Part shown: positions 1 through 26,459 of the stretch, in pieces | Layout of the letters: the number at the start of each line of letters is the position of its first letter | Numbering within the stretch: the first letter of the stretch is position 1 | Assembly (NCBI GenBank): GCA_035236585.1 | Contig: CP141132.1 | Span: 23,705,445-23,769,444, forward strand | DNA from: Warburgia ugandensis | Taxonomy: Eukaryota; Streptophyta; Magnoliopsida; Canellales; Canellaceae | Direction: 5' to 3' | Length of the DNA: 64,000 nt | The notes under the pieces: generated by a model | Database searches by the model: none | What the model was told of the DNA's origin: nothing | The model's input: only the letters and a program-made list of their open reading frames with translations | Made by a program: the position numbers and the translations under genes

Positions 1-32
1 TTATTATATATATGTCATTTCTCAAATGCAGG

Positions 33-4858: not shown

Positions 4859-4866
4859 CTGCCGCC
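4859..4866. repeat. Target site duplication, left (CTGCCGCC)
   Basis: Eight bases directly before the left hAT terminus. They match CTGCTGCC at 26452-26459 at 7 of 8 positions. Eight-base duplications are diagnostic of hAT insertion. Confidence 0.8.
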
Positions 4867-5060
4867 TAAGGGTGGCAAAATATGACACGACACGATAACA
4901 CAACTCGAACTCGACATGGATTTAGCGGGTTAGGGTTGAGCCTTATCGCATTCGTGTCATTTTCAGGTTGACCCGAAATTGACACATCATAAATCGTGTT
5001 GTGTTCGGGTCAATCAATGTTGACCTGTCGGGTTGACCCATGTGACGCGTGAATAAAACT
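4867..5060 (+). repeat. Left terminal region of the hAT element
   Basis: About 195 bases beginning TAAGGGTGGCAAAATATGAC, with repeated GACACGAC / CGTGTC words and a GTCGGGTTGACCCATGTGAC stretch near its inner edge. It is homologous to 3141-3371 in reverse and shares word content with the right terminus. Confidence 0.8.
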
Positions 5061-5077
5061 TACACTAAATAGGATGG

Positions 5078-5305
5078 TTTCTGAGTAATAGTCCTTTATC
5101 ATGATATAATATAGGACTGTTAGAAAGTAACTGTCCTATATAATGAAAAGATATAGGACAGTTAAGATGAAACTGTCCTATATTTTTATTTGTTATAAGA
5201 TGGTTGAGGCGTCTTATTATGTTATATAGGACGGTTATTAACTAACTGTCCTATATATTAAGATTTATAGGACGGTTATTAATTAACCATCCTTCAAGTT
5301 CTCAT
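5078..5305. repeat. Subterminal palindrome cluster B (5-6 units)
   Basis: Units such as ATAGGACTGTTAGAAAGTAA followed by CTGTCCTATA, and ATAGGACGGTTATTAATTAA followed by CCATCC, spaced about 45-50 bases apart. They are the same family as cluster A and lie directly inside the left terminus. Confidence 0.85.
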
Positions 5306-6159
5306 ATTCAATTAGCTCGTAGTGCTAATTCACCAAACATGACAACCATGGATTTACATTAGGTATCGAACAAAGATACTCTAACTGTCCAACAACAATA
5401 ATTCAAAACAAAATGGAAACTGAAAAAATCATTGCTTCAAGGAAAAGCTTACACTGAAGAACATAAAAAAGAACCAGCTCAACATTTTCAGCTACAACTG
5501 AGTCCAACTACACTTTCAAGCTTTATTGACATGATGTTTTTTAAAAGAAATAACATCAAGAAGTTTGTGGCAACAAACTTAAAATGTATAATCCCAATCA
5601 CTAATACTGGATACATTAAAATAAGGCCTTGCATTGAGAAAAGTGTGCTCTGACTAAAGAGAAAGGGGTTAAATTCTTACAGTGCAGGTACCAATAAGAT
5701 CTCAGAGTACATCAGATAATTTAGTGTCAGGTGTCTTCAAGTAGTTTAGGCTGAGTTTTCATTTAAAAACAGACATTGTTTCATCTCAATATTACATAAT
5801 ACATATCATCAGCAAGTAAAGGGAACCGTTTTCAAAGATGCAAAGCAGTTGTTGCAAAAAGTATTCCAAAATGAAGATGGTTTGTTCTTTGCAGTACATT
5901 CTCTAAGAATTATGAATTACAATAGGCACTGCAGCTTCTGGTACTGAAACTACTATGTCAGTGAGCTTTTGCCCACTAACTATTTTGATTGGACATATTC
6001 TTCTCTACTAAGCAGACTAGTGGCAAGAGCATGTTAGACTAGACATATAAATAGTAAAGAGACACATTAGATTACAACCCATCACTAATGCTACTCTTCA
6101 ATTTCACCTGCATGTTTTATTGGAAACCAGAGTCACCAGAAAAGAAGCAGATGATCAAA

Positions 6160-6193
<34 letters not shown>

Positions 6194-7408
6194 TAGAACA
6201 AGGTAAAGAAGCTAGATACACTATGTTTATTATTGTAAGTTGAGAATAATGCTCTTCCAAAAGAAAAAACTCTAGTTTCCTATAGTTCTAGAGTTGTTTG
6301 AGTTTGAAAGTATTAAGAATAAGGTAAAGAAGCCAAATAAATAATGTTGACTATTGTAAGTTGAGTTTTAAAAGACTTAAACATCTTAGTCTACAAATAG
6401 ATAAAAGAGAAGAAAGTAAGAAAGCAGTTGAGATGAATGATTTTTCATACAATTGAGTGTTAGTGGACAATAGTGTTTAGACACAACCTGCAAAAAGAAG
6501 TAAAAGAAATAGCCAAAAAGACAAGTACTTTGCCCAATAAAAATGTTTTCAATTCCTTAAGCTTTTAGATATTCAACATGATATACGACGGTTACTAAAT
6601 ACCCATCCTATATTAGTAAAAATTGTATAACCTGCAGCTGCAGTATAGTCCATCCATTATACATGACTTCACTCCTCAGTCGTCACACACCAAAACCCTG
6701 TCTTGACTCTCGAAGGCTTGAACACACCAACCCATCATTAAAAATGTGAAATAAAGTAAAGCAAGCACATTGTACTCTGTACACAATACACACAATCACA
6801 TTGACACACATGAGTGATGAGTGAGTCCTTGTAGTCTGCAGAGATGAGAGACCTCATCATGTAAAGAATGAGCAAAACTTCAAAAATTGGAACTCTTACC
6901 ATGTCTAAAATTCTTTAAAGGAGTAACACATGTAAAAAACTCTGGTATTTTCCAAAGTTATTTTCCTTTGCGTTAGACTAAAGCCTGCTGACATGCATAC
7001 TTGATTCAAACAAAAAATGGGATACGACCATAGTAATAATGGACTGCTGTGTCAAAAATTTAAAATCATTGTACACATTCACTTCTGCTCCATACAGTTG
7101 ACATTGAATTGGAAAAATAAAAGCATAACCAATCACCCATACTATATATGATACATTCACTCTTCTCTTCAGTCTTCTTCATGGGCAGCCACACCTCATC
7201 ATATATCTTACGTCTGGTTCAAGACACCAAGTTCCCAATCCCATCATTGAAATTTGAAAGTTTGAAACAAAGAAAGCACATACATTGAAACAGTGTACTC
7301 CAATCAAAAGAAAAATAGAACACATCCATAGAAATGAACTGATCTTTGTATTATATTTGAGTAAAATGTATATACATGATTGATTATACATTCATTTACA
7401 TCATTGAA
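5306..7408. other. hAT subterminal spacer downstream of the Ulp1-like gene
   Basis: AT-rich, with no convincing gene. It contains an ATC/CAT microsatellite at about 6160-6193 and one isolated palindrome unit at about 6576-6612 (ATACGACGGTTACTAAATAC..). From about 7250 to 7408 it is homologous to 1926-2080 of the partial copy. It is about 1.1 kb longer than the matching region of that copy. Confidence 0.6.
6160..6193. repeat. (CAT)n microsatellite
   Basis: An uninterrupted run of CAT trinucleotides, about eleven copies. Confidence 0.9.
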
Positions 7409-10400
7409 CTACAAATTAAAATTCATAATATGATCTGTCCATTCCATTCTAATATCGTCTAGATCTAACTAGGAGTAACTCTTGCTTCCCAAATCCACCT
7501 GCAAGAAATATATAATAACTTAGTTATGACATGTAATCTTGGATTCAGTCAGGAAATATATAAAACAAAAGTGTAACATTGGTCAGTAAGTCTTACCTTT
7601 CTCAATTGTGAGATTGTAACTCCATTGCGAATGAGGGTTCTCATGTATTTGAGAACATAATACCCACACTCTCAATCTGATTTTTGTTTAGGGCACTGCA
7701 GAACAATGTCACCAAAGACAACAAAAAAGGTTCAAAATATCATGTCAAATAAGTTCAGGTTTAAAATTATATCAAAGAGTCTAAAGAGCAGTAATTAGTA
7801 AACCTTACCTTGGCCTTCTTCCAGTTGAGTTTTGGTGGGTGGTTAATACCTTCCCGCTCAGCCCATTTATACCATGCTCTACACACATATAATTGAAAAG
7901 CATTAGATTAAGAATATTATGATAGTTGTCAAGTGAGTAGTTATATTATAATGAAAGGAATAATAAAGACTTACTTGTTTATAATTTCCATTAAGTGTTC
8001 TCGAATGTGTGCTTCACATGAATAAAAAAAAATTGCATGGTCACTATGCACATCCAAAGCTAGCAGCATCCAATGGGACCTATAAAAATAATAATTCAAT
8101 TGTATGTTCTCTAATCTTAACTAATAAAGATATTCATGTGTATGAATTATGAAATTGAAAGGGCATAATCAAGCAACATATGTTAGTTACAATGTACCCG
8201 CTATTGTAGGGACTCAGCAAGGCTTGCCCCTTCTCATAACCCATGAGCCCATGAATGATATCTTCACTTTGTTTGTCTACGGGCAAATGGTGCAAACGAA
8301 AGACAAGAGAAGGGTCAAGGAACTTGTAAATGTCCTTGACCTCTAATCTTTGCAAGCTAGCATGCAAATACCTGCATTAGGAATTTTAGTTAATGTCAAA
8401 AAATTATCAAGTGTTATTAAAAAGCAAGTAATGTTACTTTGATTCGTAATAGTCTAACTCTAATAGAGCAGTTACACGATGACATACCCTATATAGACTA
8501 TGATATGCATGTATTCTAACTGAGCCATATTACATATGTCCAAGAGGTTTTTCTTGAAGAGTGGAACCTCAACCACTTCTTTTGAAAGCACACTTGCCTC
8601 TATCCTTATGGGGTTCATTTCCTTATCTTCATTGGTACCTGTAGGAATGGAGGCATGTTAGGTGGAACCTCCACCTGATCCCTACACTATAGATGTAACA
8701 TTTCAGAAATTAGTAATGAATATATACAACATATACTGGTATACTACTACTAGCATATATAAAAGAAGAGAGATAGTGAGATCAAATTACCTGGGAAGGC
8801 TCGAATGGGGCTACACTTGGCACTAGTCCAGAATTTGCTGGCGGGGAGGTTCCCTTCAATTGCCTCTTGTGCTGTTTTTGGTGATCCAACATGTTGCAAA
8901 CAATATTAATCAACTAACAATTTAGGATGACTTAAAAGAGGTAGGAGAAAATGATGTCATGACTACAATTAGAATATATGTACCTTGGAATTGAACATCA
9001 TTGGTTTGATATGTTTCTCTGGTCAACACACATGATATCCAATTGCATCCCCAACTATTTCAACATCATCCCCTTCGATTGGAAATGGAAGGGGAGCATC
9101 TGGTTGAATGGCAACAGTGATGAACACGCGCTTAGTGTGTGGAGGCATCAACTTCCAATGCAAGGTGGCAGAAGCCGTGAGCTGAACCTCGTACAATGTT
9201 GCCACAACCACATAGTTCTCAGATGTATGTAGCTGCAATATGCACTGGCCCACCTGCATTTGAGAAATGACATATATATATAATAATTAGTGATGTAATG
9301 TAAACAAAAAAGGTTAGTAAATAAGTAACATTGTAAAACTAAACATGTTAATATACATACCTCACTGATCGGGTTTGGGACATCACATTCAAGTACTTGT
9401 TCTGCCACCTCTTCATCTGATGGAGGACTAGGAGTGCAGCTATTGTCATATTAGGGTAGTTGAACTTGAGCTTGAGGTTGAGGTTGAGGTTGAGGGCCAA
9501 CATCCTCACATGAGGTTCTTCCGCCACCTTGGAGTTCCTTCAGTAACTGATCTTTGACCTTGCTATATATCTCCTCAACAGTTTGCTGCTTCCATTCTTC
9601 CAATTCTTGTAGCGTAGGAGCCTTTTGTTTCGAGAAGAACTTGGAACATCACGACCTTGACCCCTTACCTGGCCAGGGTGCTCTTCCTTATTGCCCATTA
9701 CCCTATACAGGATGTCCCACTTTGCAGTAGTGCTGCTAAGAGTCCCTATAGTTGCACTTTCTTCTTGGGTCAACTCTTCCTGGAAATGTAAAGACTAAAG
9801 ATCATAATATGTTCAAATCCCTATTATATATGTAATATTTATATAATGCATGAGTATAAAACTAAAAGTCTTAAACCACTTGCAACAGGCACATAAAGTA
9901 AAAGTATAGTATATAAAGTCTTAAACCACTTACAATTCTTAATGTAATTGCTGCAGTAGTCTCATTAGTAAAGGTGACGGAGTTATGCCCTTTTGAATAT
10001 GCCATTTTCCATAGAAGGGCATGGTTGATGGGCTCCGTTGTCCTAGCCTTTTGTTGTTGTTAAGAGAGACACTTGTCAGAGTTAATAAAATAAAAATCTA
10101 CTATGACTAGATAAATGAAATGTGACATGATATACTTACTTCATATGCCTCTAATCTTGCGTAGCCAACCCTTGAAAGGTGGTGTTGCATATGATTCTGT
10201 GCATGAGCCTTTTGTCCTATTATACACTTTGCCTAGACATCAAAGTAACATAATCAAAATACAATCAAATATAATATTACCAGAATCAAAATTAGGGATG
10301 GCTAGTTCAAGTTGTGATTACCTCAAAATTAAGAGATAGCCTATACTGTACAAATTGATTTCATGCTTCCTGGTTAATGAAGCAGGAATATAACTGAGGG

Positions 10401-11081
10401 ACCATGTTAAGCCTGGAAGGATCATGGGAATTTGGAAGTATGTACTTCCTTGCAAGCTCACTCTTCCATTTCCTCCATTGTTCAGCAACTCCTAGTAATG
10501 CTTGCTTCTTGCACTCATCAGATATGTCGAAGGCAGACTACAAAACAAAAGAAGAAGCAGGTTAAGTGACTAACTAACTAGTGAGTATTGTAGTAACTTT
10601 GTGTATCATGATTCATATGCAAACAAAAACAAAATATATAAATATAAGGGAGATATTATGTTATATGTAGGAAGAATTTATATACTTTGACCATTTCCCA
10701 TATTGCATCTTTGACTTCTGGTGATACAAGTCTCCAATCAGTCACTGATACAAGCACAAGTCTTTTAACAGTGTAGCATATGAAGCTAGCATAAGCATGT
10801 GCTGTACCACCTATCGGTTGGCCTCTACTGTTGAAGTGTACATTTTCTTTGATTTCCTTGGATGCTCTCTTATTTATATGATCCATTTGTGTTGGCCCCT
10901 TGGCCTTTCTCTTGACACTGATAGATGGTGTTAGTGGTGGACATGTGCTTGATAGCCTTGATTGTTCTGCTTCTAATTGTTCTTGTACTACTTCTTCATG
11001 TTCTTGTTGTAGTTGTACTTCTTCTTCTTCCATGTTTGCTTCACAAATAAAAATGAAAATGACTACAGTTAGAAAAGTCAA
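7409..11081 (-). pseudogene. Transposase_24 / DUF8039 / Ulp1-like gene, multi-exon, carried by the hAT element
   Basis: Read on the minus strand. The N-terminal exon (11081 to about 10690) has an acidic Glu/Gln-rich start and then KGPTQMDHINKRA, FNSRGQPIG and TDWRLVSPEVKDAIWEMV, the usual start of plant Transposase_24 (Ptta/En/Spm, TNPA-like) proteins. Exons at about 10538-10320, 10235-10130 and 10050-9940 follow. The next exon (9782 to about 9350) holds LTQEESATIGTLS and HPGQVRGQGRDV, also typical of that family. A DUF8039-like exon lies at 9259-9023. The Ulp1-like exons are about 8350-8200, 8080-7975 (HWMLLALDVHSDHAIFFYS), 7878-7810, 7694-7597 (ECGYYVLKYM) and 7498-7409, ending MNFNL and stop. 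The start chosen is the ATG of MEEEEVQLQQEHEE near 11033; the open frame begins at 11081. Against the partial copy, the Trp before ECGYY is a stop codon (TGA), so it is probably inactive. The gene is divergent from the transposase gene. Exon borders are by eye. Confidence 0.7.
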
Positions 11082-12029
11082 AACTGGAAAGTGTAAGTGA
11101 AATAATTCAGTGCATTAGAAGTGATGATCAAAAGGTATTAGTCAAAGATGGTGAGATCAAACAAAGGTGGCAAACATACTTTCAAATATTGTTAAATGAC
11201 AATGGCTCTGAGAATATAGGGATGGAAAATACTATAATATAAATCTAAATAACATTGGATATTATAGATATGAACGTAGGAGTAGAATACCTTAGAAAGA
11301 GGCTTTGCAAAACATGAAACAAGTGTATCAGAGAATCAATCAATTTGGTTTCATCTTTCATGATGCTTGCAAATGCAGGGCTATATAGAGTTATAGGCAT
11401 CATCAAAGTTTAAAGATATGTATGACAGTACAGTTACTACAATATGAGTGTGTGTATGAGGGAGATAACAATTAACAAATGTCAAAACCACTAGTGGCGA
11501 ACTAGTGTGTGATTGTTAATTTGTTAACCCTATATTCTAATAAGTAATTGTAATGTAATATATAATACTACATTTACAAGAGTGTTGCTAGTGCTTGTGC
11601 TTGCCACAACTTACAACTATTGCTACATAACAAAAATAGGGGAAAAAATGGCGACATTACATTTACATAGAGTTTCCAACTTCCAAGAGCATAACAGAAT
11701 ATGAACCAGTACCTGATGATGATAAACCTCCTTCCATTATGGTCACCGGTTGGTTTTTACCTTCTAAGTTTTTTCCCCTCCTCTCTCACTCTCTACTTCT
11801 TCTCTCCCCTTGCTAGGGTTGCAATTTTTCTCTCTCCCTCTCTCCTTCTTCCTCTTGCTGATACTCTTCTTCTGGTTCATGCATTTGCCCTGGTTCTGGA
11901 TGAACCGTTGACGGACTTTACCACTTAGGGTTGAATTGCTGTAGAAGTAGGAAGAGAATAGAGAAGACATGAAATGCGATTATGTGAAGGTGAACAGTGA
12001 AAGGCGGGAGAAGAAAGGTTTAATGTAAC
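11082..12029. other. Upstream region of the Ulp1-like gene
   Basis: About 950 bases without a convincing gene. The stretch 11740-11900 is pyrimidine-rich and accounts for short open frames on both strands. Being upstream of the minus-strand gene and bounded by a palindrome block, it is the likely promoter side of that gene (inference). Confidence 0.4.
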
Positions 12030-12490
12030 ATAAATATAGGATGGTTCTTCAAAAACTGTCCTATAATAATATAATTATAAGACGGTTAATAAATAACAGT
12101 CCTTTATTTAGTAACAATCATATGACGGTTGTTAATTAACCATCCTGTAATAAGTTTACAATATAGGATGGTTGTTAATTAACCATCCTGTAATAATTTT
12201 AAAATATAGGACGGTTGTTAATTAACCATCCTATAATAATTTTAAAATATAGGACGGTTGTTAATTAACTATCCTGTAATAAATTCAAAATATAGGACGG
12301 TTGCTAATTAACCGTCCAATATAAGCAAAAATAAACCACGCTTATATAGGATAATTATCAAATAATCATCTTATAGATAATATATATAAGACGGTTGTTA
12401 TATAACCGTCCTATAATTAAGAAAAATATACGACGGTTATTACATAACCGTCTTATACTATTATATTATAAAAAGAAGATTTTCCTTTAA
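12030..12490. repeat. Internal palindrome cluster D (about 10 units)
   Basis: About ten tandem units with a period near 45 bases, for example ATAGGACGGTTGTTAATTAA followed by CCATCCTATAA. They are more uniform than in the other clusters: several share GGTTGTTAATTAACC at the centre. The block lies between the two divergent genes, about 950 bases upstream of the Ulp1-like gene. Confidence 0.9.
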
Positions 12491-14504
12491 TCGTCTTGCA
12501 GTTACTTAGAAAATTTAAAAGCAATTATGTAAATATCATCCTTGATCAACTTCATCAAGGAGATTATCCTTCAATTTCATGGATTTCACCTCTTTTAAGT
12601 TTTAAAGCTAGATAGCCTAGATTTCTTAATTGAACACAGATCAGCCACTTATAAGTTATAACAACTGATTCCATGTTTCAAAGTTACAATATCATCCATC
12701 AAATTATCAATAGATCATAAGATAAACATACTCATATGTAATAACAACTGATTCCATGTTCCACATAATAATATAAATTAAAACAACTCATACTCATTAC
12801 TTGTTGAGGACCTGAGTTTGGTTGAGGATGAGTAATAAGAGAAATAGTTATGTAATTAACTAATCTTAGACTCTTAGTTTAGGATGAGCTTAAAAAGAAA
12901 GAGTTATGTAAGCATCACTGTATGAGTAAAGAAATAATAATGTAATTAACTCATCTTAATTGAGTAGAATTGAGGATATGCAGCATGGCTGCATGAGCTT
13001 AAAGAGACAGAGTTATGTAAGGTGTCTAAGGACTAAGGATGACTATATGAGTATGAGTAAATAAAGTGTTGTGTAATTAACTCAACTTAGTTACTTAGTT
13101 GAGGATGAGCTTAAAAAGACAGAGTTATGTAGGTAAAACTCATACTCATTAGTTGTTGAGGTTGAAGATGAGTAAAGAACTTGTTATGTAATGTAATTAA
13201 CTCATCTATAGTTGAGGATTAGCTTAAAAAGATAGAGTTATGTAAGTAACTCATACTCATTAGTTGTTGAGGTTGAGGATAAGTAAAGAAAGAGTCATGT
13301 AATTAACTCATTAGATAAGAAATGAGAATGACTGAATGAGAATAGAAGCAGTTATGTAATTAATTCAGTAGTTGAGAATTAACTCAATAATGTAATTAAC
13401 TCATTAGGTGAGTTACTAGCTTTTACTCTACATGGTTAATGGATGAATGAGTTATTCCCAATAAATTATCATCAATTGGGAGTTAGAATTTAGAAATTAG
13501 AAACATTGGTAAGAAATCAAAACAAATCTTGAGTTATATGAGTTGGAGAAATGATATTCATTAATTTGATGACAAAGAGATATATCATATATTAGATCAA
13601 TTGGTGATGACATCATTGACGTGTGGAATTAGTATACGAAAATCATGAGCATTTATAATTTTATATAATATATGACAATTACTCACTTACACAAGTTACA
13701 AAACTTGTTAATTAATTATCTTGTAAGTGTAACTTGTTATTGACAATGTGTAGCTAATCTTAAAATGAAAGATAAGAGAATAGTAAGTGATATGATATGA
13801 TGATCACTATCATAGACTAGGATCAAGATAAGGTGTGAGAAAGATGTGTTTAATTTAAACATGCAAAAATAAGACAACTACAACATAAGGACTTAATCTT
13901 AGACCACGTTAAGTGCATTAGATAATTTAGATTAGAACTTAGATGATGAGATGATCAAAGATTCAAAGGATATTGCATTACTAATGACTCATGAGTCATA
14001 GACTCATTACTTACTCATAGTGTCATACTACTGTCAAGTGTCAAGACTCAAAGATGGTGGCACTAGACCAGATCAAATAAAAAAAAGTTGGGAATTTTAC
14101 TTTCAATTTCAAAAACTACAGTCTACTACTAGTTCTAGTACTAACTACCAAATGACAATTGCCCTAGATAATTACTTAACAGTTAACACTTAATAGAAGT
14201 ATAGAATAGGTTAAGCCATTAAGGACTTAAGCTGCTAGTGCTAATTGTGTGCTAAGCATACATATGCTTTCAACTTTTTATTTTGTTTTTCCGCCACTAA
14301 AAACTAAAAAGGGGGCCCACACCACACGTCGGATGGGACATCAAAGGCTCAAAATATTTGACAAATGATTGAAGTGTGAGTTTCATTAACTCCACTTGCC
14401 ACTTACCAGTTTGGAATTGGACTATTGGAGGAGGGGAGGATGTCTGTCCCTGTCCGACAGTCACTGGTACATCACACATCATAGTCACACTCCCATGAAG
14501 CGTG
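12491..14504. repeat. AT-rich spacer with degenerate GAGTTATGTAA minisatellite
   Basis: There is no gene here. From about 12800 to 13420 a loose tandem repeat recurs, built from TGAGGATGAG, AAAGAGTTATGTAA and TTAACTCAT words, with a variable unit of roughly 70-100 bases. Beyond it, about 13430-14504, the sequence is simple and AT-rich without identifiable features. Confidence 0.6.
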
Positions 14505-14770
14505 CTAGTAAATAAAGGATGGTTGCATAAGAACCGTCCTATTTTTCAAAATTTATAGGATAGTTAAATTATAACCACCCTTTATGTATCTAAAATTATA
14601 GGATGGTTATTTGTTAACCGTGCTATAATGAAACATAAAATAGGACGGTTAGATAATAACCGTCTTATTTTTTCTCAATAATATAGGAGTGTTATGTTTT
14701 AACCGTCCTATATTTATATTAAGATAGGACAATTATTGATTAACTGTCTTGTAACATCGACGGTTACGTT
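14505..14770. repeat. Internal palindrome cluster E (about 6 units)
   Basis: Six units such as ATAGGACGGTTAGATAATAA followed by CCGTCTTATT, spaced 45-50 bases apart and ending about 290 bases before the first ATG proposed for the transposase gene. The position suits a promoter-proximal regulatory array (inference). Confidence 0.85.
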
Positions 14771-15535
14771 GTAATGATCTTTTACTTTTTGTTAAATAAT
14801 AAGATGGTTATTATTTACCTTTTATTAAGCACAATCACGATGGATCTCAGTCATCTGACTGATCAATGGGAGAGAGTGAGAGAGTCTAAGACTAAGAGAG
14901 GCGTAATATAACAATAGTCTATAGATAATGATTTACTTTTAGATGTTTAGCGTGAATATGTATTCAAGTATTCCTAACCCAACCCAAGCTTTTACATCTC
15001 TTTCAGATTTTTCTTCCTAGATATCTTCAAGACTTCAACCATTTTAAATTTCTAACACAATGAGCAGCACACCTACTCCTACAACACCACAAGTATGTTT
15101 ATGTTTTTTGTTATTTCTTTATGATTCTAACTCTTTTTAGTCATCACTCCCTTATTAGTAACTGGTTATTGGTGTAGTGTTTACTATGACAGTGTGAACT
15201 AAATTTTGTTTGTCATTTGTATTTTGCAATATAGGCACAATGTGGGAGCACTGATGCTCTAATAATTTGAACATGCTGCATGACAACGACGATGATGAGC
15301 TTGCTGATTTGGAGAACGTGGAGTTAGTTTCAAAATCCACCAGAGCTAAAAAGCATAGGAAGCTAATGTCTCCAGTTTGGAATTTTTTGAACACCTTCCA
15401 ATATCAGAAGATGGAAGGCAAAGGTGTAAATTCAAGAAGTGCTCTGCGATATATATTTGTGATAGCAAATTTGGTACTGGTAATTTAAAACGTCATATAA
15501 AAACTTGTCAACATAGCTCTTCTCATGATACATAC

Positions 15536-16870
15536 TGTTAAGTGTTTAATTTTGGCTAAAAGACCCCTAGTTTAGAATTCAATTAGATCATCTAATCGTC
15601 CAAATTGCAAAATTTAGCTTGATTGACCATCCAAACTTTAATTTTCTCAAAATCAACGGTTAGATGATCATTAGAGCTTATTAGAGGATTAATGTACGGT
15701 TTTGATGATTCTAATTTAGTCTTTTATTTTGCAAATCAACTAAAGGAGGGTTGGATGGATCAGATCTAATTTCAACAGTGCAGATCAAGTAGAGATTAAG
15801 AGGAAGAGTCCTAATTGAAATAGAAGAGGAAGAAGAGTCCTAGATAGGGATAAGAAGAGTTTTAGATGGGGATAAGAAGAGTTGTTGGAGAAAAACAAGG
15901 GAGTGAAAAGGCTATAAAGAGGAGAGCTGCACAAGCCTAAGGAGGAGTTTTTGTTTTTAGGAGAGTTCTCGTGATTTTGTTTGCCTTACATTCCATTTGA
16001 ATTTTTGTTGTGCTTCCATCAATTTACTACACTTCTTCCCCTCTTTGTCCCATCTCCCTTGTTGAAGACACCCAGCTTCTAGCTTTCTTCGCCTTCCTTA
16101 ACCGCACCCCACCCTCTCATGTGCACCATTCCTACTTCTACCGCACCCCCTCCTAAGCTACTATTCCCTTTCCCCTCTACTCTGTCACTTCACCACCTGA
16201 ATTCACTAGCCTCTACCCATTCTTCCCATCTTCTCACTCCATCTTCACCTCTACTCATATCCACCCTCAACCGATCTTTCCTAGATTGTTCCCCTCACCT
16301 CTTCGCCATCTTTACGCACCAAGCCTAGGCTCCCCCACCTCCACACACTCCTCTGCTCCCCATCGTTTCCACCAGCCGGCTTAGGGAGAGAAAACCCGAT
16401 CTCCCATCCCTTCTTCCTCTCTTTCCCTCTTTTACTCTCCCTCCTTCTTCTCCCTCTTCTTCCTTCGGCTTTTCCCTCAACGAGTTTTCCTATTTTTCAA
16501 TTAAAACCAGAAATCTGGAAAATTTCCAAGTCTACCCTTGTAAGATTTGTGGAATTCCAAATGTGTCCTCATTTTAATACCAAATGTGTCCCTATGCTAT
16601 TCTGGTTCTGTTTTATCCACATTCTATCTATCTAGGGACAGTGATATCCAGGACTGCTTATTTAGTTTCTTTTTTTTTTGGAATAAATAATTTTGTAAAG
16701 TTCAATAGTTGAATAAATCTGGATTTTATTGTTAGTTTATTTCTGGTATATTCTTTTTTTATTAATTGAATTTTATTTTAAACTCCATTTTAAAGCGAGT
16801 CCCTATGGGTTTGACCGGTATTTGCATAGCTATACTACAATAGCCCATGCACTTGCGAAAAACATCAACA
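15536..16870 (+). repeat. 5' LTR of the non-autonomous Athila-like element
   Basis: Starts TGTTAAGTG and ends CATCAACA. The middle (about 16020-16480) is a long pyrimidine-rich tract. Open frames there (for example 16119-16328) are compositional. Confidence 0.85.
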
Positions 16871-18071
16871 AGTTTTTGGTGCCATTGCCGGGGACTTGTA
16901 AAGGAGTTTTTATAAAATTTAATTAAAATTTTCAAAAAAAATTCAAAAAAATATTAGGAATTACATTTTAGGTAATTTTAGGTGCATTTTCAATTATTAT
17001 TGTTTTAGTGCATAACCACTTGATTTCCTAGAATTGGTACTTATTTCTAAATTTTCTTTTTCAAGGAAACAGGAAAGTGGAGAAAATTGGCAAGAAAATC
17101 TTCATCAACATGGAAATTTTCCTACTTTCCTAGATTAGGATTTTTTTTCCTTTTGAGTGAAACTTGTAGTGAGGATCCTTGTAAATTTCAATTTCAAATT
17201 TCATTTTAAAGGGTTGTAATAATACAAAGCAAGTGTGGGATAAGGTGGCCCACACTTGATCTTCATCAGAAATCCCATTGTAAGTCTCCTCACTCATTTA
17301 AAGTCCTAGATTAGGGTTTGTATTTAGAGTAAATTTGCATTGTTTGGTAGTATAAATCATATAGAAAGCATCCTTTTATAATTGTTGCATTTTTAGGTTT
17401 TGCATTAGTTTATTGCTTTTGTTTGCATCTTAGGATATGGTTAATGCTTTAAGGTGATATATATGTCGATCGAACTGCCATGGAGTGTGGAATTAATTAG
17501 TAAGGGCATCCTATCCCCATAAGATCAAGGGTGGATTTCATCACCACTCCTTGGCCCACCTAGGATAATCACCTCAAGCGCGCTACCCTAACCTTCAAAT
17601 CAAATTAAAATCAATTAGAAGAGACCTATAGGGCTATCACATGCTCATAGGACCCTATTACTAAGACTCGATTTATTGTCACTCTAGTGGCTTTTGAGCA
17701 CTGTGGTTATTGAGGGTTGTCTAATAGAGCCTCACTCTTCCCTCGCCTCCTGTTGACGTTTGTGAGGTCTAAACACCTCCTTACACAAGGGTTGTATTAA
17801 CCACCTTGCGAAAAACCTAACTAGTAAGTAATAATCAAGTTTAAAGGAGAAGAGGAGTGCTAGAGTAGGCTAATTAAAAGTATTGTCCCCACACAATTTC
17901 AAGAAAATCAATATGTTGCTTATTAGCCTCAAGAATTATATTGTGTCCTTTGTTTGTTCATCTTTCTAGGAAGTTAGGTTGCATCATGTAGGTTAGTTTT
18001 CATCTTAAAAAAAAGAAGAAAAAAAAGGAGCCTATCAAGAAGGGGATAGATTTCATAGATTAAATGCATCG

Positions 18072-18973
18072 ATGGATCGGTTGGATCTTATGGAAAGTCA
18101 ATTGCTTAGGCTAATAGCTTCTAGACAAGTTGCGCCACAACCTCAATACCATAATGACTCTACTTATTCTGAGCATCCATATTCCACTCCTTCCTGGTCC
18201 CTAAGCTCCACATACAATGAATACTATCAGGAGCTATTCGATGCACCTAATGCATTCACATACCCTAGCAATTTTTATTCTGAGACATATTATCAAGATT
18301 CTAATGGATGTATTAGGCATCATAAACAACCATGGTCTCAGGATTATCAATATCAGGAAGAACCGCAATGGTCTCACCTTGGTCAGTACTACCATGATTA
18401 TTCAAAATATCAGGGTCAACCATCATGTGTTCAGCCTGCTCAGTCCTTTTTCAGTACCCCAATGCCACAATAATACCAACCCTATGAGTCATTTCCTCTA
18501 CGAGAAGAATCACTATTAGATGAAAAAATGCAAATATGTGTGAAATAATAGCACAAGGGAATACGAAAATAAGACAAATGATGAAGGATTACACTGAGGA
18601 AATAAATCGAGGGAGGAAGGAATTTGAGGAAAAACTAAAACAAATTAGGGGAAATATAGAGCCATTTGTTTTGGACACTAGAATGGAAATTTTCTATGAT
18701 CCTTATGAGTCACAAAGTCTACAACCATCCTTAGAAATCTCCAACTTCAATATACTTGAGTCATGTCCTGATTATGAAGAGACTTCCATTGATGAAGAGC
18801 ATAACACTTTAGAAAAATCCAACCCTAATCCTTTAGATGCGTATCCCACCTATTTGTATGACTCTGATGAAGACACATCTATTGAGGCAATGCCTGAGTT
18901 GTTGGATATTGTGCCTCTAATGGACACTTCTAGATTGCAAGCCAGAGTAGATCATCCTAAGCATGAAATTTAG
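18072..18973 (+). other. Open stretches in the non-autonomous element (function unknown)
   Basis: Two consecutive open stretches, 18072-18473 and 18536-18973. The first is rich in Tyr, Gln, Ser and Pro (QYQEEPQWSHLGQYYHDYSK). The second is acidic, with a PLMDTSRLQA stretch resembling the PIMDTSKW segment in the related plus-strand element near 58930. They look like remnants of the gag/pre-protease region of the family. Nothing enzymatic is visible. Confidence 0.5.
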
Positions 18974-21369
18974 ATTGCGCCTTTTAATGTAATAGATGTA
19001 CCTGATTGGGACCTCGTGGCCTTATTTGAACAAACATCAAATGATAATATAGGCCCAATTACTACCGTACCTATGCTTATCAAACAGAAAGAAGCAGAGA
19101 CAGTTGATATGCATCAACCTACTGTAGGGTACACATCAGAAGATAACCAAGATTTAAGCCAAATCTTGTCCTCGCCTCTAGAGAAGGGCTGAGTCAGGTT
19201 ATTACCTTAGTTCAGGACAATGATAGGGACACTAAGGAAAAAGATAAATTGCATAAAATGGTCATTATTATCCCTCAGTTTGGTCAAGACAAGGACTGGT
19301 TGTCACCATATGGTCCAAGGAAATACACGGTAGTTCATGTAGTCATTGTGTTACCCTCACCTCAATTTTCGAGGTGGAGCAATTATATTGACTACTGTGA
19401 AATATTGAAGATGGGGGATCAATAATATGGTCCCACTACTTTTACAATTGCGGCGATCTACTGTATTATGTTCATATCACCACCTAAAATTTCAAGGTGG
19501 AGGCCATATATAAATTACCGTGAAATTTTGAAGTGGCATGAGAATTCTCGCCATGTCATCTTAGGGTTGGGATTAGGACAAATAAGGATGACCCAGTTAG
19601 CTCTTGATTTAGAAAGTTAGGTTAGGTAATGTCCGGTTGAAGATGTTAAACTTAGCGCTTATTGGGAGGCAACCCAAGGGTTTAGAATCCACATCACTCA
19701 ACTTTCATATAGAATCCTATGTTTTCAAACATTGGGGATAATGTTTCATTCAGGTTGGGGGTTGTAGATGCACTAGAGATTTTGAATTTTTTGAAGAAAA
19801 AAAAATTGAAATTTTTTTTTTTGAAAAAAAGAAAAAGAAAAAGAAAAAAAGAGTTTTTAAAGAAGAGTTCCCTTACTGTGATGAGAATTGGATGTTCAGA
19901 ATTTAGTAAATATACTGTTTTCACCTCTTAATGGGAATGCATATGATTAGTTTTGCATGTCATTCATATATTGAAGCATTTTATGAAAGTTAATTCTCAG
20001 AAACCATTTACACACAGCACATAATCAAGACTAATACAGAGGTATGATTTAGAAACCTTGAGAAAAATTAGTGGAGACCTATAACCTAGTGAGAGTTTGA
20101 GACTATCTTCTTTTAGAGAGGGTTATAAGTAATTCCATAATTTCTTCAGCGTACATACATTAATGTGATCCTATTATCATTGTTTTGGTTAAACATCAAG
20201 AATAAATAGGAGTAATAACTTTAATTCTAGAAATTTATTGAATCTGATAGGCTATAAGAAACCTAGGAAATGATATAGGTCATCCTTGCTCAGCTTAGAG
20301 ATATAAAGCCTATCCAATATAGTATACCACTAGTTAGCTTTTTGAGCCAGTTATTAAGCCTTTTCATTCTTAACCCCATTCACCTTAACCCAGAATAACC
20401 CAGTAAAATAAATAACCATTGCCCATCTTCAAAATGAGTAGAGTAGAAAAAGTTCAAAAATAGGACAAAAAGTCAAAGAAGTGAGAAAGAATTAGCTGTC
20501 TTTCTTCCAAAGAAAAAAAGAAAAAAGAAAAAAAGAAAGAAAAAGAAAGAGCAAAATTTGAAAGAGAAATTCGCTTCAAGTATAAACCAAAAAGAAAAGT
20601 TGTCCCAGAAGATATTCATTGAAGACATCTACTCAATTTTGAACCTTTGAATTCTTTATACCTTTCATTTCTAAACCTGCCCTAAGCCTACATTTCGTCC
20701 TAGTTAAAGACCTATTGATCTTAGGTGGACATAGCCTTAAAGAGGAGATAAAAAGAAAGAATTAAGGTAATAGACCCCTAATATTCTTGGTGATAGCATC
20801 CACTCTTAGGGATCAGTTCCTTTGTCTCATGAGCGTTGAAAAGAATTATGTGAACCATTAGCTTGTTGGATTCGGTCACATAATGAGAGAAATGTGCTAA
20901 ACCCTTTATCTAAGAGTTTATTTCTGAGCATATACCTGTGAGGATTTGAGGTCAAAGCATATTTTCAATGGAATATAAGCATATCCAATTAAAAGTGAAG
21001 ATTTATGTGACTATATACACATATGCACTCTGAGAAATAGCTCAAATAAAATGTCTTTAATATATGTATGGTGTGTAAAATTGTCAAATGCTCTTCATTA
21101 AGTTGTGAAAAATTAGTAAAATTGCTAATGAATGAGGATTCTCTGAGACAAAATAAGGGACTTGACTTTACTAAATTTTGTGGGTATATTCACTGCAAAC
21201 CCTCACGAGGCCCAACTCATCCACTAGGGGTAACCTAGGGGTTCAATGGCTTATTGCATGTGCTAAATGCAATCGTGAGTACCTACGAAAGTGGCACCTT
21301 GTACTAGTTTTGTGAAAAATAGTTGTCTGCATGTTTTGCTCGGAACTAGCAAAATGCTGGTTGGGGGTG
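18974..21369. other. 3' untranslated part of the non-autonomous element
   Basis: About 2.4 kb without convincing genes, ending in a G-rich tract just before the 3' LTR. The portion from about 19680 to 21369 is homologous, inverted, to 34880-36560 in the minus-strand Athila element. A-rich and T-rich runs occur at 19795-19850 and 20510-20560. Confidence 0.6.
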
Positions 21370-22940
21370 TGTTAAGTGTTTAATTTTGGCTAAAAGACCC
21401 CTAGTTTAGCATTCAATTAGATCATCTAACCATCCAAATTGCAAAATTTAGCTTGATTGACCATCCAAACTTTAATTTTCTCAAAATCAATGGTTAGATG
21501 ATCCTTAGAGCTTATTAGAGGATTAATGTATAGTTTTGATGATTCTAATTTAGTCTTTTATTTTGCAGATCAACTAAAGGAGGGTTGGATGGATCATATC
21601 TAATTTCAACGGTGTAGATCAAGTAGAGATTAAGAGGAAGAGTCCTAATTGAAACAGAAGAGGAAGAAGAGTCCTAATTGAAATAGAAAAGGAAGAAGAG
21701 TCCTAGATAGGGATAAGAAGAGTTGTTGGAGAAAAACAAGGGAGTGAAAAGGCTATAAAGAGGAGAGCTGCAAAAGCCTAAGGAGGAGTTTTTGTTTTTA
21801 GGAGAGTTCTCGTGATTTTGTTTGCTCTACATTCCATTTGAATTTTTGTTGTGCTTCCATTAGTTTAACTTCTTCCCCTCTTTGTCCCATCTCCCTTGTT
21901 GAAGACACCCAGCTTCCAGCTTTCTTCACCTTCCTTAACTGCACCCCACCACTCCTCTCTTTCCATTATGATTTCTAAACCAAGATCACCATTGCACACT
22001 CCCCTTCACATTCCGCATTTCTCTCTTCTTTCCCTTACACTTCACGCACCATCTTCTTCTTCCCATCCATCTTTTTCTCCAATACCGCCGTCTCTCTTCT
22101 CTCTTAGTCTTCGTCTCCCTTGTTTACATTGACCGCATCTCCCAAGCACCTCTTTCCATCCCTCTCATGTGCATCACCCTGCTTCTATTGTACCCCCTCC
22201 TAAGCTATTATTCCCTTTCCCCTCTACTCTGTCGCTCCACCACCCGAATTCACTAGCCTCTGCTCATTCTTCCCATCTTCACCTCTACTCATATCCACCC
22301 TCAACTGATCTTTCCCAGATTGTTCCCTTCACCTCTTCGCCATCTTTACGCACCAAGCCCAGGCTCCCCCACCTCCACACACTCCTCTGCTCCCCATCGT
22401 TTCCACCAACCGGCCCAGGGAGAGAAAACCCAGATCGGGTTTTCTCCCATCCCTTCTTCCTCTCTTTCCCTCTTTTTCTCTCCCTCCTTCTTCTCCCTCT
22501 TCTTCCTTCTTCCCCATCTCCTCCGGTTTTTCCCTCAACGAGTTTTCTTGGTTTTCAATTAAAACTAGAAATCTGGAAATTTTCCAAGTCTACCCTTATC
22601 AGATTTGTGGAATTCCAAATGTGTCCTCATTTTAATACCAACTGTGTCCCTATGCTATTCTAGTTCTGTTTTATCCACATTCTATCTATCCAGGGACAGT
22701 GATATCCAAGCCTGCTTATTTAGTTTCTTCTTTTTTTTGGAATAAATAATTTTGTAAATTTCAACAGTTGAATAAATTTGGATTTTATTATTAGTTTATT
22801 TCTGGTATATTCTTTATTTTTTCTTTTATTAATTGAATTTTATTTAAAACTCCATCATTTTGAAGTGAGTCCATGTGGGTTCGACCCGTATTTGCATAGC
22901 TATGCCATAATAGCCCGTGCACTTGAGGAAAACATCAACA
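21370..22940 (+). repeat. 3' LTR of the non-autonomous Athila-like element
   Basis: Starts TGTTAAGTG after a GGGGGTG purine tract and ends AACATCAACA. Its length (1,571 bp) equals that of the minus-strand copy at 33310-34879. Confidence 0.85.
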
Positions 22941-25010
22941 TAGGCCAGTTGCTTTTATCTGAAAGTCAGGGGAGTATGTCACTAAGTTCAGCTTCAGACA
23001 ATAAGTTTGATCCTGAAGTTTATCGTGAGTTAGTAGCATCTGCAATAGTTATGCATGATTTGCCTTTTCAATTTGTTGAGTATGATGGAATTAGAGCTCT
23101 ACTAAAATATTTGCATGCAAATTTGCATTTGATTAGCAGAAATACAGTAAAAGCAGATGTTCTAAGAATGTATAAAAGAGAAAAAGGAAAGATAAAAGAG
23201 ATGTTAGAGTTGGCACCTAGTAGGATAAGTTTGACATCTGATTTGTGGACTTCTTGTATTATTGATGGTTATATAAGTCTCAGAGCATATTTTGTAGATA
23301 GTCAATGGGTCTTACACAAGAGGATATTAAATTTCTATTTTTTACCACCTCCACATAATGGAATATCATTAGCAGAAAAGGTATACTCATTATTGGTAGA
23401 ATGGGGGATTGAGAAAAAGAATTTTTCAATCACTTTAGACAATGCTTCTGCTAATGATTCTTCTGTTAAGCTGTTAAGGCATCAATTAAACATCAGGGAT
23501 AGTCTTGTTTGTGGTGGAGAGTTTCTTCATCTTCCTTGTTGTTGTCATGTTTTAAATTTGATTGTGCAAGATGGTTTGAAAGAAATTGATGATGCTATTC
23601 ATAAAATTCAAGAGAGTATTAAGTATGTCAAAGCATCGCAAAGTAGAAAACAAATTTTTTTAGAGTATGTGAATCACATGTCAATTGAGACAAAAAAGGG
23701 CTTAAGACAAGATTTTCCTACAAGATGGAATTCAACTTATGTGATGCTTGAAAGTGCTCTTTGTTACTAACTTGCATTTTGTCACTTAGAACTATGTGAA
23801 TCAAATTATAAGCATTGTCCTTTTTTAGATGAATGGGAAAAGGCTATAAAAATTTCAAAGTTTTTAACAGTTTTTTATGATGCCACCTACATATTTTTTG
23901 AATCCAAGTATCTCACAGCAAATCTCTACTTTTGTGCAGCATTTGTGATTAATTTGACCTTAACACAATACTTGAGAAGTGATGATAACTATATGAAGCG
24001 TATGTCAACCCAAATGTTTGTCAAGTTTTCAAAGTACTGGTCTGAATTCAGCACCATTTTGGCAATTTCATGTGTGTTGGATCCTCGATATAAGCTCTCC
24101 TTTGTGGACTTCTCATACAAGAAATTGTATGGTAATGGTTGCTTGGAGTTTGCTCAACTTTGGGATAAGTTATTCTCTCTCTTCAATGAATATATGGTTA
24201 AGACTTCTCCTATTCCTTCCTCATCTTCCCCAGTGGCTAGAGGTACTGATGATAGATATAACTCGATATATAGTAAAGAGATTTTAGATGTCATTAAGGT
24301 AATTATATTTATAATTGTATCTTTCATTATATGTAGCTTAGCATATTAAAATTTAGTATGAATTGTCTTACAGTAAGTTGAATAATATAATTGCATTTGC
24401 ATTAGGAATTTGATTCATTTGAAAGTGAAGGAGTTTCTTTGGCAATGCAAAAATAACAATTGGAGCTTTATTTGGATGAACCAAGATTGCAAGAGTCAAA
24501 GCTGGACATTCTTGCATTCTGGAAAGGCAATCAATACAGGTTGGTTGACTAATAATCTCTTGTCTCATGAAAACACTAATTTTTATAATCTTATTTACAT
24601 TTATATTTGATTAAAATGTTAATTTTAGGTATCCTGAACTTGCAACCATGGTTCGTGATGCCTTGTGCATTCCCATATCTACAGTTGCATCAAAGTTTGC
24701 TTTTAGTGTTGGTGGCCGGGTTCTTGACTAATATAGATTTGCTTTAAAGCCAGATACGGTGCAAGCATTGATATGTGTAAGAGATTGGCTATATGGATTG
24801 AAAGGTAATAATTTATGATTCTATATTTATATTATATTTTATATGAGTTTAGTAATGACTATTGGATGTTTATTCTATATGATTGTAGACTCTGCCATTA
24901 CAGTTGCCATGGATGAGCTTGCTGAGGACATTGTAAGCATAAGTAGCAGTGCAGGATCTCCTCAACCAACTGAAGACTCTAGAACAATGGATTTTGATTC
25001 ATTTGTATAA

Positions 25011-25847
25011 TTTTCATAACTTATATTAATTTGGTGTTTGATACATTGATGAAAATAGATTTCCCTCATGTGCTACGTAATCCCTAGTTATTTACTACTA
25101 TTGCGGCTATTTGATTCATTTGAATCTCTTTTAGACCTCATGTAAGTGGTGTAAAAGTACTGTGTTGCTTCTAAATAAAATATTACAAGAACTTTATTGG
25201 TAATTTGGTATGGTCCTTTCAAGATTCACCAATACTAGTAGTTGGTAATGCTTTTCTGTGTTTGTCTGTGTAATTGTCATGTGGATTAGTGGATGGAGCA
25301 ATGACCAATGACAATGAGCATGGAAGGAAAGGAGTTGGGGAAATGAATTCTATCCCATCAATTCATGTGGGGGTTGAAAGTTCTTATTCATTATTGAAAG
25401 AACCATGCCATAGGGTCTTCTTCTGTTCTTTCCACTTTCCAGTTTCCAATTCCATTCATTGAAAAGTGTATTGTTGGGTCCTGTCTGTCCTCACTCCTCG
25501 ACTACATTTGTACAACAATTCCATTCATTGGTCGTGTCTCCTGTGCTAGCCTTTTTTGTTGGCTGTGGCCTGTGGCTGAGGCTCTTCACACCCTACACAA
25601 GAAAGCTTGAATATGAAGTTATGGCTCTTAAACGAGGACATCTTACAGCTGACTCAAGTAAAGCATTTAGATTTTACTTTAAGTGCGATGCCATGTGTTA
25701 AACCCAAGCACTAAAAGTTTGAAACAAGTATATGCAATTTCTGATTTCTGCTATAGAAGCTCATTGCATCAAGGCATCATCATCTCCTTCAGAAGTAATG
25801 AAGTATCCATTTGAGGCCAACTTTTCAGAATCAGAAGATTACTAATA
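25011..25847. other. hAT spacer downstream of the transposase gene
   Basis: About 840 bases. Short open frames at 25274-25462 and 25459-25701 have no recognisable domain and are probably non-coding. No repeats were noticed apart from the palindromes that follow. Confidence 0.5.
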
Positions 25848-26205
25848 TATATAGGACGGTTAATAAGTAACCATCCTATTAAAGATTTTAACTAGTAGAT
25901 AGCTAATACATAACCATCCTATATTTTTGTGCATTCTTAAGTAGGCGTTTTATATTTTATGTTATATAATATAGGTCGATTACTAAATAAATAAGTAACC
26001 ATCCTGTTAAAGATTTTAACTAGTAGGCTATAGGACGGTTACATAACCGTCCTATATTTTTATAGTTTATGTTATATAATATAGGTCGGTTACTAAATAA
26101 CCGTCCTATATTTTTATAGTCTCATACTTTTAGAGGACGGTTATTTCATAACCGTCCTATATTTTTTATGTTTTAAAAGATGGTTATTAAATAACCATCC
26201 TATGT
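25848..26205. repeat. Subterminal palindrome cluster F (about 7 units)
   Basis: Units such as ATAGGTCGGTTACTAAATAA followed by CCGTCCTATA, adjacent to the right terminus. It mirrors cluster B at the left end. Confidence 0.85.
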
Positions 26206-26451
26206 TTCATGTCGTGTTGTATCATCCAACACGACTCAGTCACTTTATCGTGTCACACGGGTCATGTCGTGTCAATTTTTTTAGAAACAGGTCATGTACG
26301 AGTCATGGGTTTTTGACACGACTATTAATCGTGTCGTGTTTGTGTTGACCCATAACTCTAATCATGTCGTGTTTGTGTCGACCCATAACTCTAATCGTGT
26401 CGTATTTGTGTCGATACAAACACGACCCACTAATTTGAATTGCCAGCCCTA
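26206..26451 (-). repeat. Right terminal region of the hAT element with 33-bp tandem repeats
   Basis: GTGTCGTGT-rich. Contains three tandem 33-bp units starting at 26327, 26360 and 26393 (AATCGTGTCGTGTTTGTGT..GACCCATAACTCT). It ends TTGCCAGCCCTA, the inverted partner of the left end. Confidence 0.8.
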
Positions 26452-26459
26452 CTGCTGCC
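26452..26459. repeat. Target site duplication, right (CTGCTGCC)
   Basis: Eight bases directly after the right hAT terminus, one mismatch from the left copy at 4859-4866. Confidence 0.8.

Follow-up and report, generated by a model that had tools for sequence, protein, structure and literature searches.

CACTA elements carry subterminal repeats, a likeness to the family described here. In ORF2 of Jozin, a CACTA element from Chenopodium, Transposase_24 is described as being followed by Peptidase_C48 (PMC8978399), which is the order also found at the present locus, and Ulp1 domains are reported from five Cactavine families (PMC2528002). An accessory gene with an Ulp1 domain is likewise reported for VANDAL MULEs of the KIU type, and VANDAL elements are described as having tandem repeats of a short motif in noncoding parts, among them introns and the regions upstream of genes (PMC13317346, PMC5735166, PMC10398659). 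TnpA, encoded by En/Spm, is described as activating the element from which it comes, accompanied by DNA demethylation (PMC10398659). The papers cited thus describe element-encoded loss of silencing in two groups, MULEs (through VANC and MURA) and En/Spm (through TnpA) (PMC10398659, PMC5735166, PMC13317346). For the hAT elements of grapevine, terminal inverted repeats (TIRs) of 8-23 bp and target site duplications (TSDs) of 8 bp are given, and the families measure 2-5.5 kb, with one of variable size (PMC2528002).

The element described here lies in a window of 64 kb (the whole stretch of DNA that was analysed) from Warburgia ugandensis. With the hAT superfamily (Ac/RICESLEEPER-like, Hatvine) it shares the 8-bp TSD, a TIR of the TAGGGGTGGCAA type, the BED finger, the RNase-H-like core and the dimerisation domain. 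Unlike these hATs it has two divergent genes as well as palindrome arrays at its ends and upstream of both genes, and compared with the grapevine families its own family is large (12.9-14.3 kb in copies without a retrotransposon for which both ends were found). It differs from CACTA elements in lacking CACTA ends, in having an 8-bp instead of a 3-bp TSD and a hAT instead of a Transposase_21 transposase, and in carrying the accessory gene on the strand opposite to the transposase. While VANDALs are non-TIR MULEs with DUF1985, we find here a hAT with Transposase_24 and a palindromic motif whose arrays also lie near the ends; in comparison to VANDAL anti-silencing, the present family is known from the sequence layout of its arrays and genes. 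Pfam describes Transposase_24 as 'Plant transposase (Ptta/En/Spm family)', and the likeness to TnpA is one of family description; it differs from En/Spm TnpA in that the Ulp1 domain is fused here and the host element is a hAT.

Positions 4867-26451 of the window are one hAT insertion inside a copia RT, 21,585 bp long including a nested retrotransposon of ~7.4 kb and recognised by its TIRs, a 7/8 TSD and colinear copies elsewhere. The hAT-type ends of the original prediction were found at both places: the left TIR TAAGGGTGGCAA starts at 4867 and the right one (reverse complement TAGGGCTGGCAA) ends at 26451, the two 12-bp ends matching at 10 of 12 positions. The left terminal region (4867-5066, plus strand) combines this TIR with ACACGAC-rich subterminal DNA and as a query gave at least 40 scored places genome-wide; the right terminal region (26206-26451, plus strand) holds the TIR TTGCCAGCCCTA. 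A degenerate TIR pattern built from the element's ends occurs in the 64 kb only at these two places and at a third end at 3372, which belongs to a second, inverted copy on the minus strand (1-3372). This copy is cut by the window edge and includes the 3' part of the accessory gene and three palindromes at 3026-3134. The 8-bp duplication predicted in a copia RT exists with seven of its eight bp identical (CTGCCGCC at 4859-4866, CTGCTGCC at 26452-26459; chance of at least 7/8, 3.8e-4), and the flanks match RVT_2 once above the cut-off of 31.6 bits (32.6 bits, positions 165-221) and once below it (23.7 bits, positions 30-71). The predicted span of 21.6 kb is right for the window copy, but not for the copies without the retrotransposon, whose size was given above.

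The transposase gene lies on the plus strand. Its BED zinc-finger exon (15362-15529) is separated from the transposase core (RNase-H-like) and dimerisation region (22937-24797), which contains in-frame stops and an altered VASESTFS motif, by an LTR-type retrotransposon on the plus strand (approximately 15537-22940, i.e. ~7.4 of the 21.6 kb) with long repeats at 15536-16870 and 21370-22940. No target duplication of this retrotransposon was found at its borders (CATAC / TAGGC). The BED-finger/hAT transposase had been correctly foreseen, as all three Pfam domains score above their cut-offs: zf-BED (PF02892) with 23 bits, hAT-like_RNase-H (PF14372) with 86.7 and Dimer_Tnp_hAT (PF05699) with 63.8, the zf-BED and Dimer_Tnp_hAT queries being pieces joined across frame breaks. 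The best-scoring protein among the matches listed is from Carya illinoinensis (55% identical across the full query). Both genes of the window copy are broken; this had been overlooked before, as had the ~7.4 kb retrotransposon, the four palindrome arrays and the inverted copy at 1-3372.

The accessory gene runs on the minus strand from the start codon at 11033 to the stop at 7409 and was modelled with 13 exons (A-M) from a comparison of 21 copies, which leave the borders of four exons (A, G, H, M) unfixed. Of these 21 copies, 12-18 have the acceptor AG and 11-20 the donor GT at exons B-F and I-L. Exons B-E (9361-10537) encode the Transposase_24 (PF03004) region, which scores 29.4 bits in the window copy and, in two further ones, 36.5 and 33.9 bits (cut-off 28.7); the match is weak in score (29-36 bits), and the profile is covered in the three copies from 1-3 to 134-135 of its 138 positions. 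With an incomplete exon set as query, the N-terminal part matched no Pfam family at E<=1, and Transposase_24 was missed. The Ulp1-like cysteine protease domain (Peptidase_C48) is encoded by exons I-M (7409-8371) and reaches 27.4 bits with a query joined from exons of two copies; two further copies gave 38.9 and 38.6 bits (cut-off 20.7). Thus the multi-exon minus-strand gene was rightly predicted with respect to these two domains, but the region labelled DUF8039-like (exon F, 8984-9253) had no Pfam match to DUF8039 at E<=10 in the window copy and two others, with a Pfam library that may lack this model. Two weak matches (Papaver, Rhododendron) were found as homologues of the accessory protein, and no protein homologue was found for its residues 400-752.

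In copy L011 the residues H, D, Q and C align with those of SENP5, and we take these His, Asp, Gln and Cys positions to be the catalytic residues of the Ulp1-like protease. The codon for the catalytic Asp encodes D in only four of 21 copies, N in six and Y in 11, so that many lineages may have lost protease activity. A replacement of this Asp by Ser, suggested when only the window copy was aligned, was rejected, as the other copies and the L011/SENP5 alignment show D, N or Y.

The window element is one copy of a large, old two-gene hAT family, ~13-14 kb in the copies read. When other hAT left ends in the 1.12-Gb genome were read inward, the Ulp1 gene was reached from 25 of 27; the remaining two lack it in the 2.7 kb read. 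Each of the 20 copies that were read over 10 kb contains the Transposase_24 half as well, and the hAT transposase core was reached in 10 of the 11 copies followed further. The order recurs: left end, array, reversed Ulp1/Transposase_24 gene, array, intergenic DNA, array, hAT transposase, array and right end. Target duplications of 7/8 or 8/8, each at its own site, were found in seven of 12 copies (window copy included), while four have no recognisable duplication and the right end of one was not read. The TIRs TAGGGGTGGCAA / TAGGGCTGGCAA are present in L028, L015, L009, L018 and L026. The genome check with the termini, as proposed in the original prediction, yielded other copies with both genes in the same order and with 8-bp duplications of their own. 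This recurrence at other sites strongly supports the central claim of the prediction, namely that a Transposase_24/Ulp1 gene of CACTA type belongs to the hAT element itself. The test named for its refutation was run in part: some hAT ends without the full gene set exist (the deletion derivatives L026 and L046 and the right end L049), and no CACTA ends with a 3-bp duplication fit the surroundings of the window copy's Ulp1 gene.

Genome searches with one word each gave 835 places for the Ulp1 gene and 470 for the transposase, numbers which vary with the choice of word and should not be read as copy numbers. Among 50 transposase words listed on C1-C3, 14 are preceded at 1.5-30 kb by an exact Ulp1 word that points the opposite way (divergent; expectation 0.24), and upstream of the same 50 there is no exact Ulp1 word in the same orientation. 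The other 36 have no exact Ulp1 word upstream, yet at least four of these copies hold a diverged Ulp1 gene. No Ulp1 place in the wrong orientation was found within 10 kb of left ends among the matches listed. For 23 of the best 40 Ulp1 places there is no listed left end (20 of the best 40 after a second left-end query); because both lists comprise the best 40 only, these unpaired places are no evidence of absence.

New in this analysis are the palindrome arrays, which lie at either end of the element and in front of each gene. The unit is a 25-bp palindrome, AGGACGGTTA-N5-TAACCGTCCT, each half-site of which contains one CpG, and units mostly follow each other at 40-44 bp. In the window, arrays are found at the left end (5071-5293, 5 units), upstream of the minus-strand accessory gene (12038-12454, 9 units), upstream of the transposase gene (14516-14750, 6 units) and at the right end (25853-26201, 6 units, four with the regular 5-bp centre). 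The intergenic region between the divergent genes (12480-14510) contains degenerate ATGAGTAA/GTAATTAACTCAT repeats, and other copies hold similar DNA. When as many as 3 mismatches per half-site are allowed, the four arrays are complete in every one of the 10 copies (window copy counted) that have a transposase and whose right array was read, and none lies inside either gene region of these copies. Exact 27-base palindromes number 959 genome-wide as against 0 for a reversed control. The 10 kb read of copy L021 are free of palindrome units, and of the 34 palindrome clusters on C1, 24 lack an exact Ulp1 word at a distance of up to 16 kb. Three palindrome places were read as possible CACTA elements: L047 and L048, 90% alike and hence not independent samples, match the beginning (5' end) of the transposase gene and the DNA upstream of it, and L049 has the transposase upstream region followed directly by palindromes and the hAT right end. 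Helical phasing of the spacings gave a Rayleigh p of ~1e-5 for 84 spacings outside 38-47 bp, but p 0.49 on the 36 distinct values; because the 84 spacings are inherited copies, phasing is not claimed.

The position of the palindrome at the ends and before both genes suggests that the family brings its own gene-switching or anti-silencing system. By analogy, the accessory protein is probably a TnpA/VANC-like regulator or anti-silencing factor acting on the palindrome arrays. The hAT transposase would cut and paste the element, judging from the ends, the 8-bp duplications and the gene; the Transposase_24 part would most likely bind the 25-bp palindromes as a dimer, and the C-terminal Ulp1-like part may remove SUMO. 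Since palindromes precede each gene and also lie at each end, the accessory protein would switch on or de-silence both genes, like TnpA of En/Spm and VANC of VANDAL, and would possibly help to bring the element ends together. With one CpG per half-site, binding to the palindromes could be methylation-sensitive. CpG decay was observed.

Ac transposase binds short subterminal repeats, and the palindromes might also be binding sites of the hAT transposase itself, with an Ulp1-like gene unrelated to DNA recognition which, for example, de-SUMOylates silencing factors or the transposase. We consider this explanation possible but doubtful. The transposase has a BED zinc finger and could equally be the palindrome binder. 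The BED domains of Hermes are described to bind the left end of that transposon (PMC10368747). The deletion derivative L026 has lost the transposase but retains its ends and arrays, which would fit recognition of these sites in trans. However, large arrays also precede the accessory gene, well away from the ends, and it is the accessory gene which carries Transposase_24, a family described from CACTA ORF2 (PMC8978399); both points lower the probability of this explanation without removing it.

All copies read are decayed, with 2-13 in-frame stops in accessory gene exons B-M of each of 21 copies, and a codon-position test for constraint on these 21 copies was not significant (p 0.33-0.88 by domain). 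Stops in 21 of 21 copies and the absence of a significant third-position excess would fit a captured passenger, i.e. an ancestral hAT took up a CACTA-type gene and the composite was amplified while the gene had no role, and capture of gene fragments by hATs is described for Hatvine-6 (PMC2528002). We are not convinced by this reading, which appears improbable, since both halves of the multi-exon gene are present in 20 of 20 copies read for 10 kb, the splice sites of exons B-F and I-L are kept in the proportions given above, the palindrome arrays in front of it also precede the transposase gene and lie at the ends, and its dN/dS as a whole does not exceed the transposase value. Over one set of 11 copies, dN/dS is 0.60 for the accessory gene, 0.73 for the transposase and 0.44 for the Ulp1 exons (small counts, no intervals); the Transposase_24 exons by themselves reach 0.75 and so show no more constraint than the transposase. 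A comparison of the majority codons of two subfamilies gave 0.42 for the accessory gene, 0.60 for the transposase and 0.19 for the Ulp1 exons (again small counts, no intervals). There are signs of past coding constraint in the family, and judged from these sequences the accessory gene overall looks no less constrained than the transposase.

That a separate CACTA element or MULE with the Ulp1 gene is nested in the hAT of the window only, or that two elements lie side by side, is extremely improbable: each gene is separately flanked by repeat arrays and the word CACTA occurs at 5063, just within the left end, but it is absent at the corresponding place of the second copy, the search for CACTA/TAGTG ends around the window's Ulp1 gene gave 11 CACTA pairs with an exact 3-bp duplication of which the best TIR reached only 8/13 and thus no such ends, TIR pairs with an 8-10-bp duplication around this gene are lacking in the ranges searched (TIR-less MULEs would escape), the region 12441-14560 has no significant match to hAT ends, and the copies with the same gene behind their left ends contradict a nested element. 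A hAT nested around the transposase was also searched for and rejected, as the three candidates had TIRs of 8/11, two of them AT-rich at one left position, and 10 shuffles gave 2 in total; over a range including the true left end this search recovers the outer pair (TIR 9/11, TSD 7/8).

A broader reading can be put forward tentatively, to which we give somewhat less than an even chance: this would be a self-regulated hAT, in which a chimeric TnpA/VANC-like SUMO-protease acts together with the arrays as a portable cassette for anti-silencing or activation, one that crossed from CACTA-type elements into the hAT superfamily and aided the spread of hundreds of copies. The proposal is readily testable, as it concerns one protein and one 25-bp motif with one CpG per half-site and hundreds of places in a single genome. 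If true, element-encoded loss of silencing would extend to a third superfamily, hAT, after MULEs and En/Spm, and it would raise the question why plant transposons recruit Ulp1-like domains again and again.

By the membership features that are open to sequence testing, the element at 4867-26451 of the window is a hAT. It starts with the terminal inverted repeat (TIR) TAAGGGTGGCAA at 4867 and closes with TAGGGCTGGCAA (reverse complement) ending at 26451, as the original prediction had placed them, and the flanking octamers, proposed as an 8-bp target duplication, agree in seven out of eight positions. A degenerate TIR-like pattern derived from these ends finds, in the 64 kb, both ends and a third one at 3372 only. 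The proposed insertion into a copia reverse transcriptase is supported by flanks matching RVT_2 at positions 30-71 with a score under the cut-off and at positions 165-221 with one over it. The plus-strand gene is indeed a hAT transposase, with zf-BED, hAT-like_RNase-H and Dimer_Tnp_hAT supported by Pfam, and the minus-strand accessory gene lies where it was expected, with Pfam matches to Transposase_24 (missed by a scan run on an incomplete exon set) and Peptidase_C48. The DUF8039 region also assigned to this gene was not recovered, as no Pfam match was found at E<=10.

The combination of both genes recurs in the genome (G000; 1,122,538,268 bases, 14 contigs). In a search with the left end the best 40 of 2625 candidates were scored, and 27 of the 39 other scored places were read inward, 20 for 10 kb and seven for 2.7 kb. 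At all 20 places read for 10 kb the accessory gene is present with its two halves in constant order and orientation; some contain gaps or insertions. The Ulp1 half is present in five of the seven left ends read for 2.7 kb; at the places L041 and L045, which possess the left end and array units, no Ulp1 gene was found within the 2.7 kb read. Of 11 copies followed beyond 10 kb, ten reach the transposase; in the copy L026 (10,219 bp), which lacks it, the accessory gene is followed by the right end. As to the target duplication, in a tally of 11 copies including that of the window (the right end of L023 lies beyond the reads), the duplication is perfect in L016 and L018, matches in 7/8 positions in L028, L015, L009, L026 and the window copy, and is not recognisable in L022, L017, L027 and L012. 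The five further copies in which both TIRs as well as the transposase are present measure 13,321, 14,269, 13,912, 12,890 and 13,316 bp.

Without an LTR-type retrotransposon (15537-22940), the window copy would measure about 14.2 kb. This retrotransposon separates the BED exon of the transposase gene from its core. It is bounded by long direct repeats, at 15536-16870 and at 21370-22940, which agree to 87% and 94% in their two main aligned pieces. A search for a matching 5-bp target duplication found none, though the gene halves on either side join without loss, both at residue 91 of the Carya protein P0003. The window copy is dead, with both genes broken: in the transposase the BED exon contains a frame break, there are in-frame stops, and a lysine replaces the glutamate of the VASESTFS motif, presumably the catalytic one; the accessory gene is interrupted by stops and a frameshift.

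For the accessory gene 13 exons were modelled. The splice sites of exons B-F and I-L are retained in many of 21 copies (acceptor AG in 12-18, donor GT in 11-20), while the borders of exons A, G, H and M are not fixed by the copies. Over all pairs of 11 copies the accessory gene (exons B-M, E cut short) has a dN/dS of 0.60, its Transposase_24 exons 0.75 and its Ulp1 exons 0.44, compared with 0.73 for the transposase core. When the majority codons of two subfamilies are compared, the corresponding values are 0.42, 0.44, 0.19 and 0.60, the counts being small (5-32 nonsynonymous, 7-22 synonymous changes) and the ratios without intervals. A codon-position test for constraint on the accessory gene in 21 copies was not significant, which may be expected if most changes came after the copies died. 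In the Ulp1-like domain of the copy L011 a His, Asp, Gln and Cys, which we take to be the catalytic residues, align with SENP5; across 21 copies the Asp position is D in four, N in six and Y in 11.

A second, inverted copy (1-3372) sits at a different site of the window, with its far end beyond the window edge. It comprises the left end, which over 180 bp shares 80.6% identity with that of the window copy, as well as three palindromes and the accessory gene's 3' part. The latter reaches 89% identity in its two longest stretches and 79-81% in two shorter ones; for the Ulp1 exons of these two copies dN/dS is 0.39 (bootstrap 0.19-0.90). It also contains a stretch of about 230 bp flanked by two 45-bp direct repeats (2081-2125 and 2355-2399). 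The sequence between left array and accessory gene 3' end is subfamily-specific (5320-7218 versus 2400-3020): it spans 1.9 kb in the window type, L009, L011, L015 and L026, and is shorter or rearranged in others. The DNA between the divergent genes contains, at 12785-13404, degenerate repeats (ATGAGTAAAGAAATAATAATGTAATTAACTCAT type, about 33 bp each), and similar DNA occurs in other copies. Elsewhere in the window, long direct repeats (45472-47166 and 53184-54878, 97.9% identical) probably mark a young LTR retrotransposon, and an inverted pair of about 1.07 kb (38101-39175 and 59209-60277) is 88.6% identical.

With up to two mismatches, a 28-base word from the Ulp1 domain occurs at 835 and one from the transposase at 470 places genome-wide, the reversed controls at none. 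For 14 of the 50 transposase places listed on contigs C1-C3, an exact, divergently oriented Ulp1 word is found 1.5-30 kb upstream, where 0.24 such cases would be expected; an Ulp1 word oriented like the transposase does not occur within 30 kb of any of them. Among the other 36, at least four copies hold a diverged Ulp1 gene. A listed left end in the right orientation lies within 7 kb of 20 of the best 40 Ulp1 places, and within 10 kb of these places no listed left end is wrongly oriented. Upstream of the best 40 transposase places a listed Ulp1 place was found in six cases, a listed left end in seven and either in nine. Among the best 40 right ends, 23 agree in score, identity and span (227 bits, 89%, 1-175; for example G000:C1:9049468, C2:9559032 and C3:5374782); they probably belong to a subfamily whose amplification was recent and which may consist of deletion derivatives like L026, L046 and L049.

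The palindrome AGGACGGTTA-N5-TAACCGTCCT occurs in 30 units in the 64 kb (up to two mismatches per half-site): 26 in the four arrays of the window element, two right-end units having irregular centres, one alone at 6585 and three in the second copy. None was found at 26452-64000 under the same threshold. In the ten copies with a transposase in which reading extended to the right array, the window copy being one of them, there are (up to three mismatches per half-site) 5-8 units at the left end, 3-6 at the right end, 6-10 upstream of the accessory gene and 4-9 upstream of the transposase, and none inside either gene region; at the place L021 the 10 kb that were read contain no unit. Neighbouring units lie 40-44 bp apart in 158 of the 250 cases in which their spacing is below 130 bp. 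Sequence identity between arrays is 81% in the arms, 42% in the centre and 44% in the linker. A single CpG is present in every arm; the 30 changes at these CpGs in 28 units include 25 of the C-to-T or G-to-A kind, which is what methylation of the arrays would be expected to leave. An extended 27-base version of the pattern matches exactly at 959 places genome-wide and at none in a control. Within the first 51 Mb of C1, an exact Ulp1 word lies no more than 16 kb from 10 of 34 palindrome clusters, against an expectation of about 0.5. Three of the 959 places, picked as a test for CACTA elements and two of them 90% alike, all match parts of related hAT elements.

No hAT with a Transposase_24 or Ulp1 gene was recognised in the parts covered of the open-licence literature. 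The portion consulted of PMC8978399 describes CACTA ORF2 with Transposase_24 and Peptidase_C48 as two consecutive domains, just like the accessory gene. Ulp1 is found in MULEs and CACTAs according to the sections seen of PMC2528002, where hAT captures are variable gene and non-gene fragments. Within this literature, a hAT combining a recurrent accessory gene with putative regulatory arrays arranged in this way is not described.

Judging from ends, duplications and gene content, the hAT transposase would move the element. The main rival for the arrays is that the BED finger of this transposase binds the palindromes instead. We consider binding by the accessory protein most likely, which by analogy would control both promoters and perhaps also the ends, similar to TnpA or VANC as far as these are treated in the parts seen of PMC10398659, PMC5735166 and PMC13317346.
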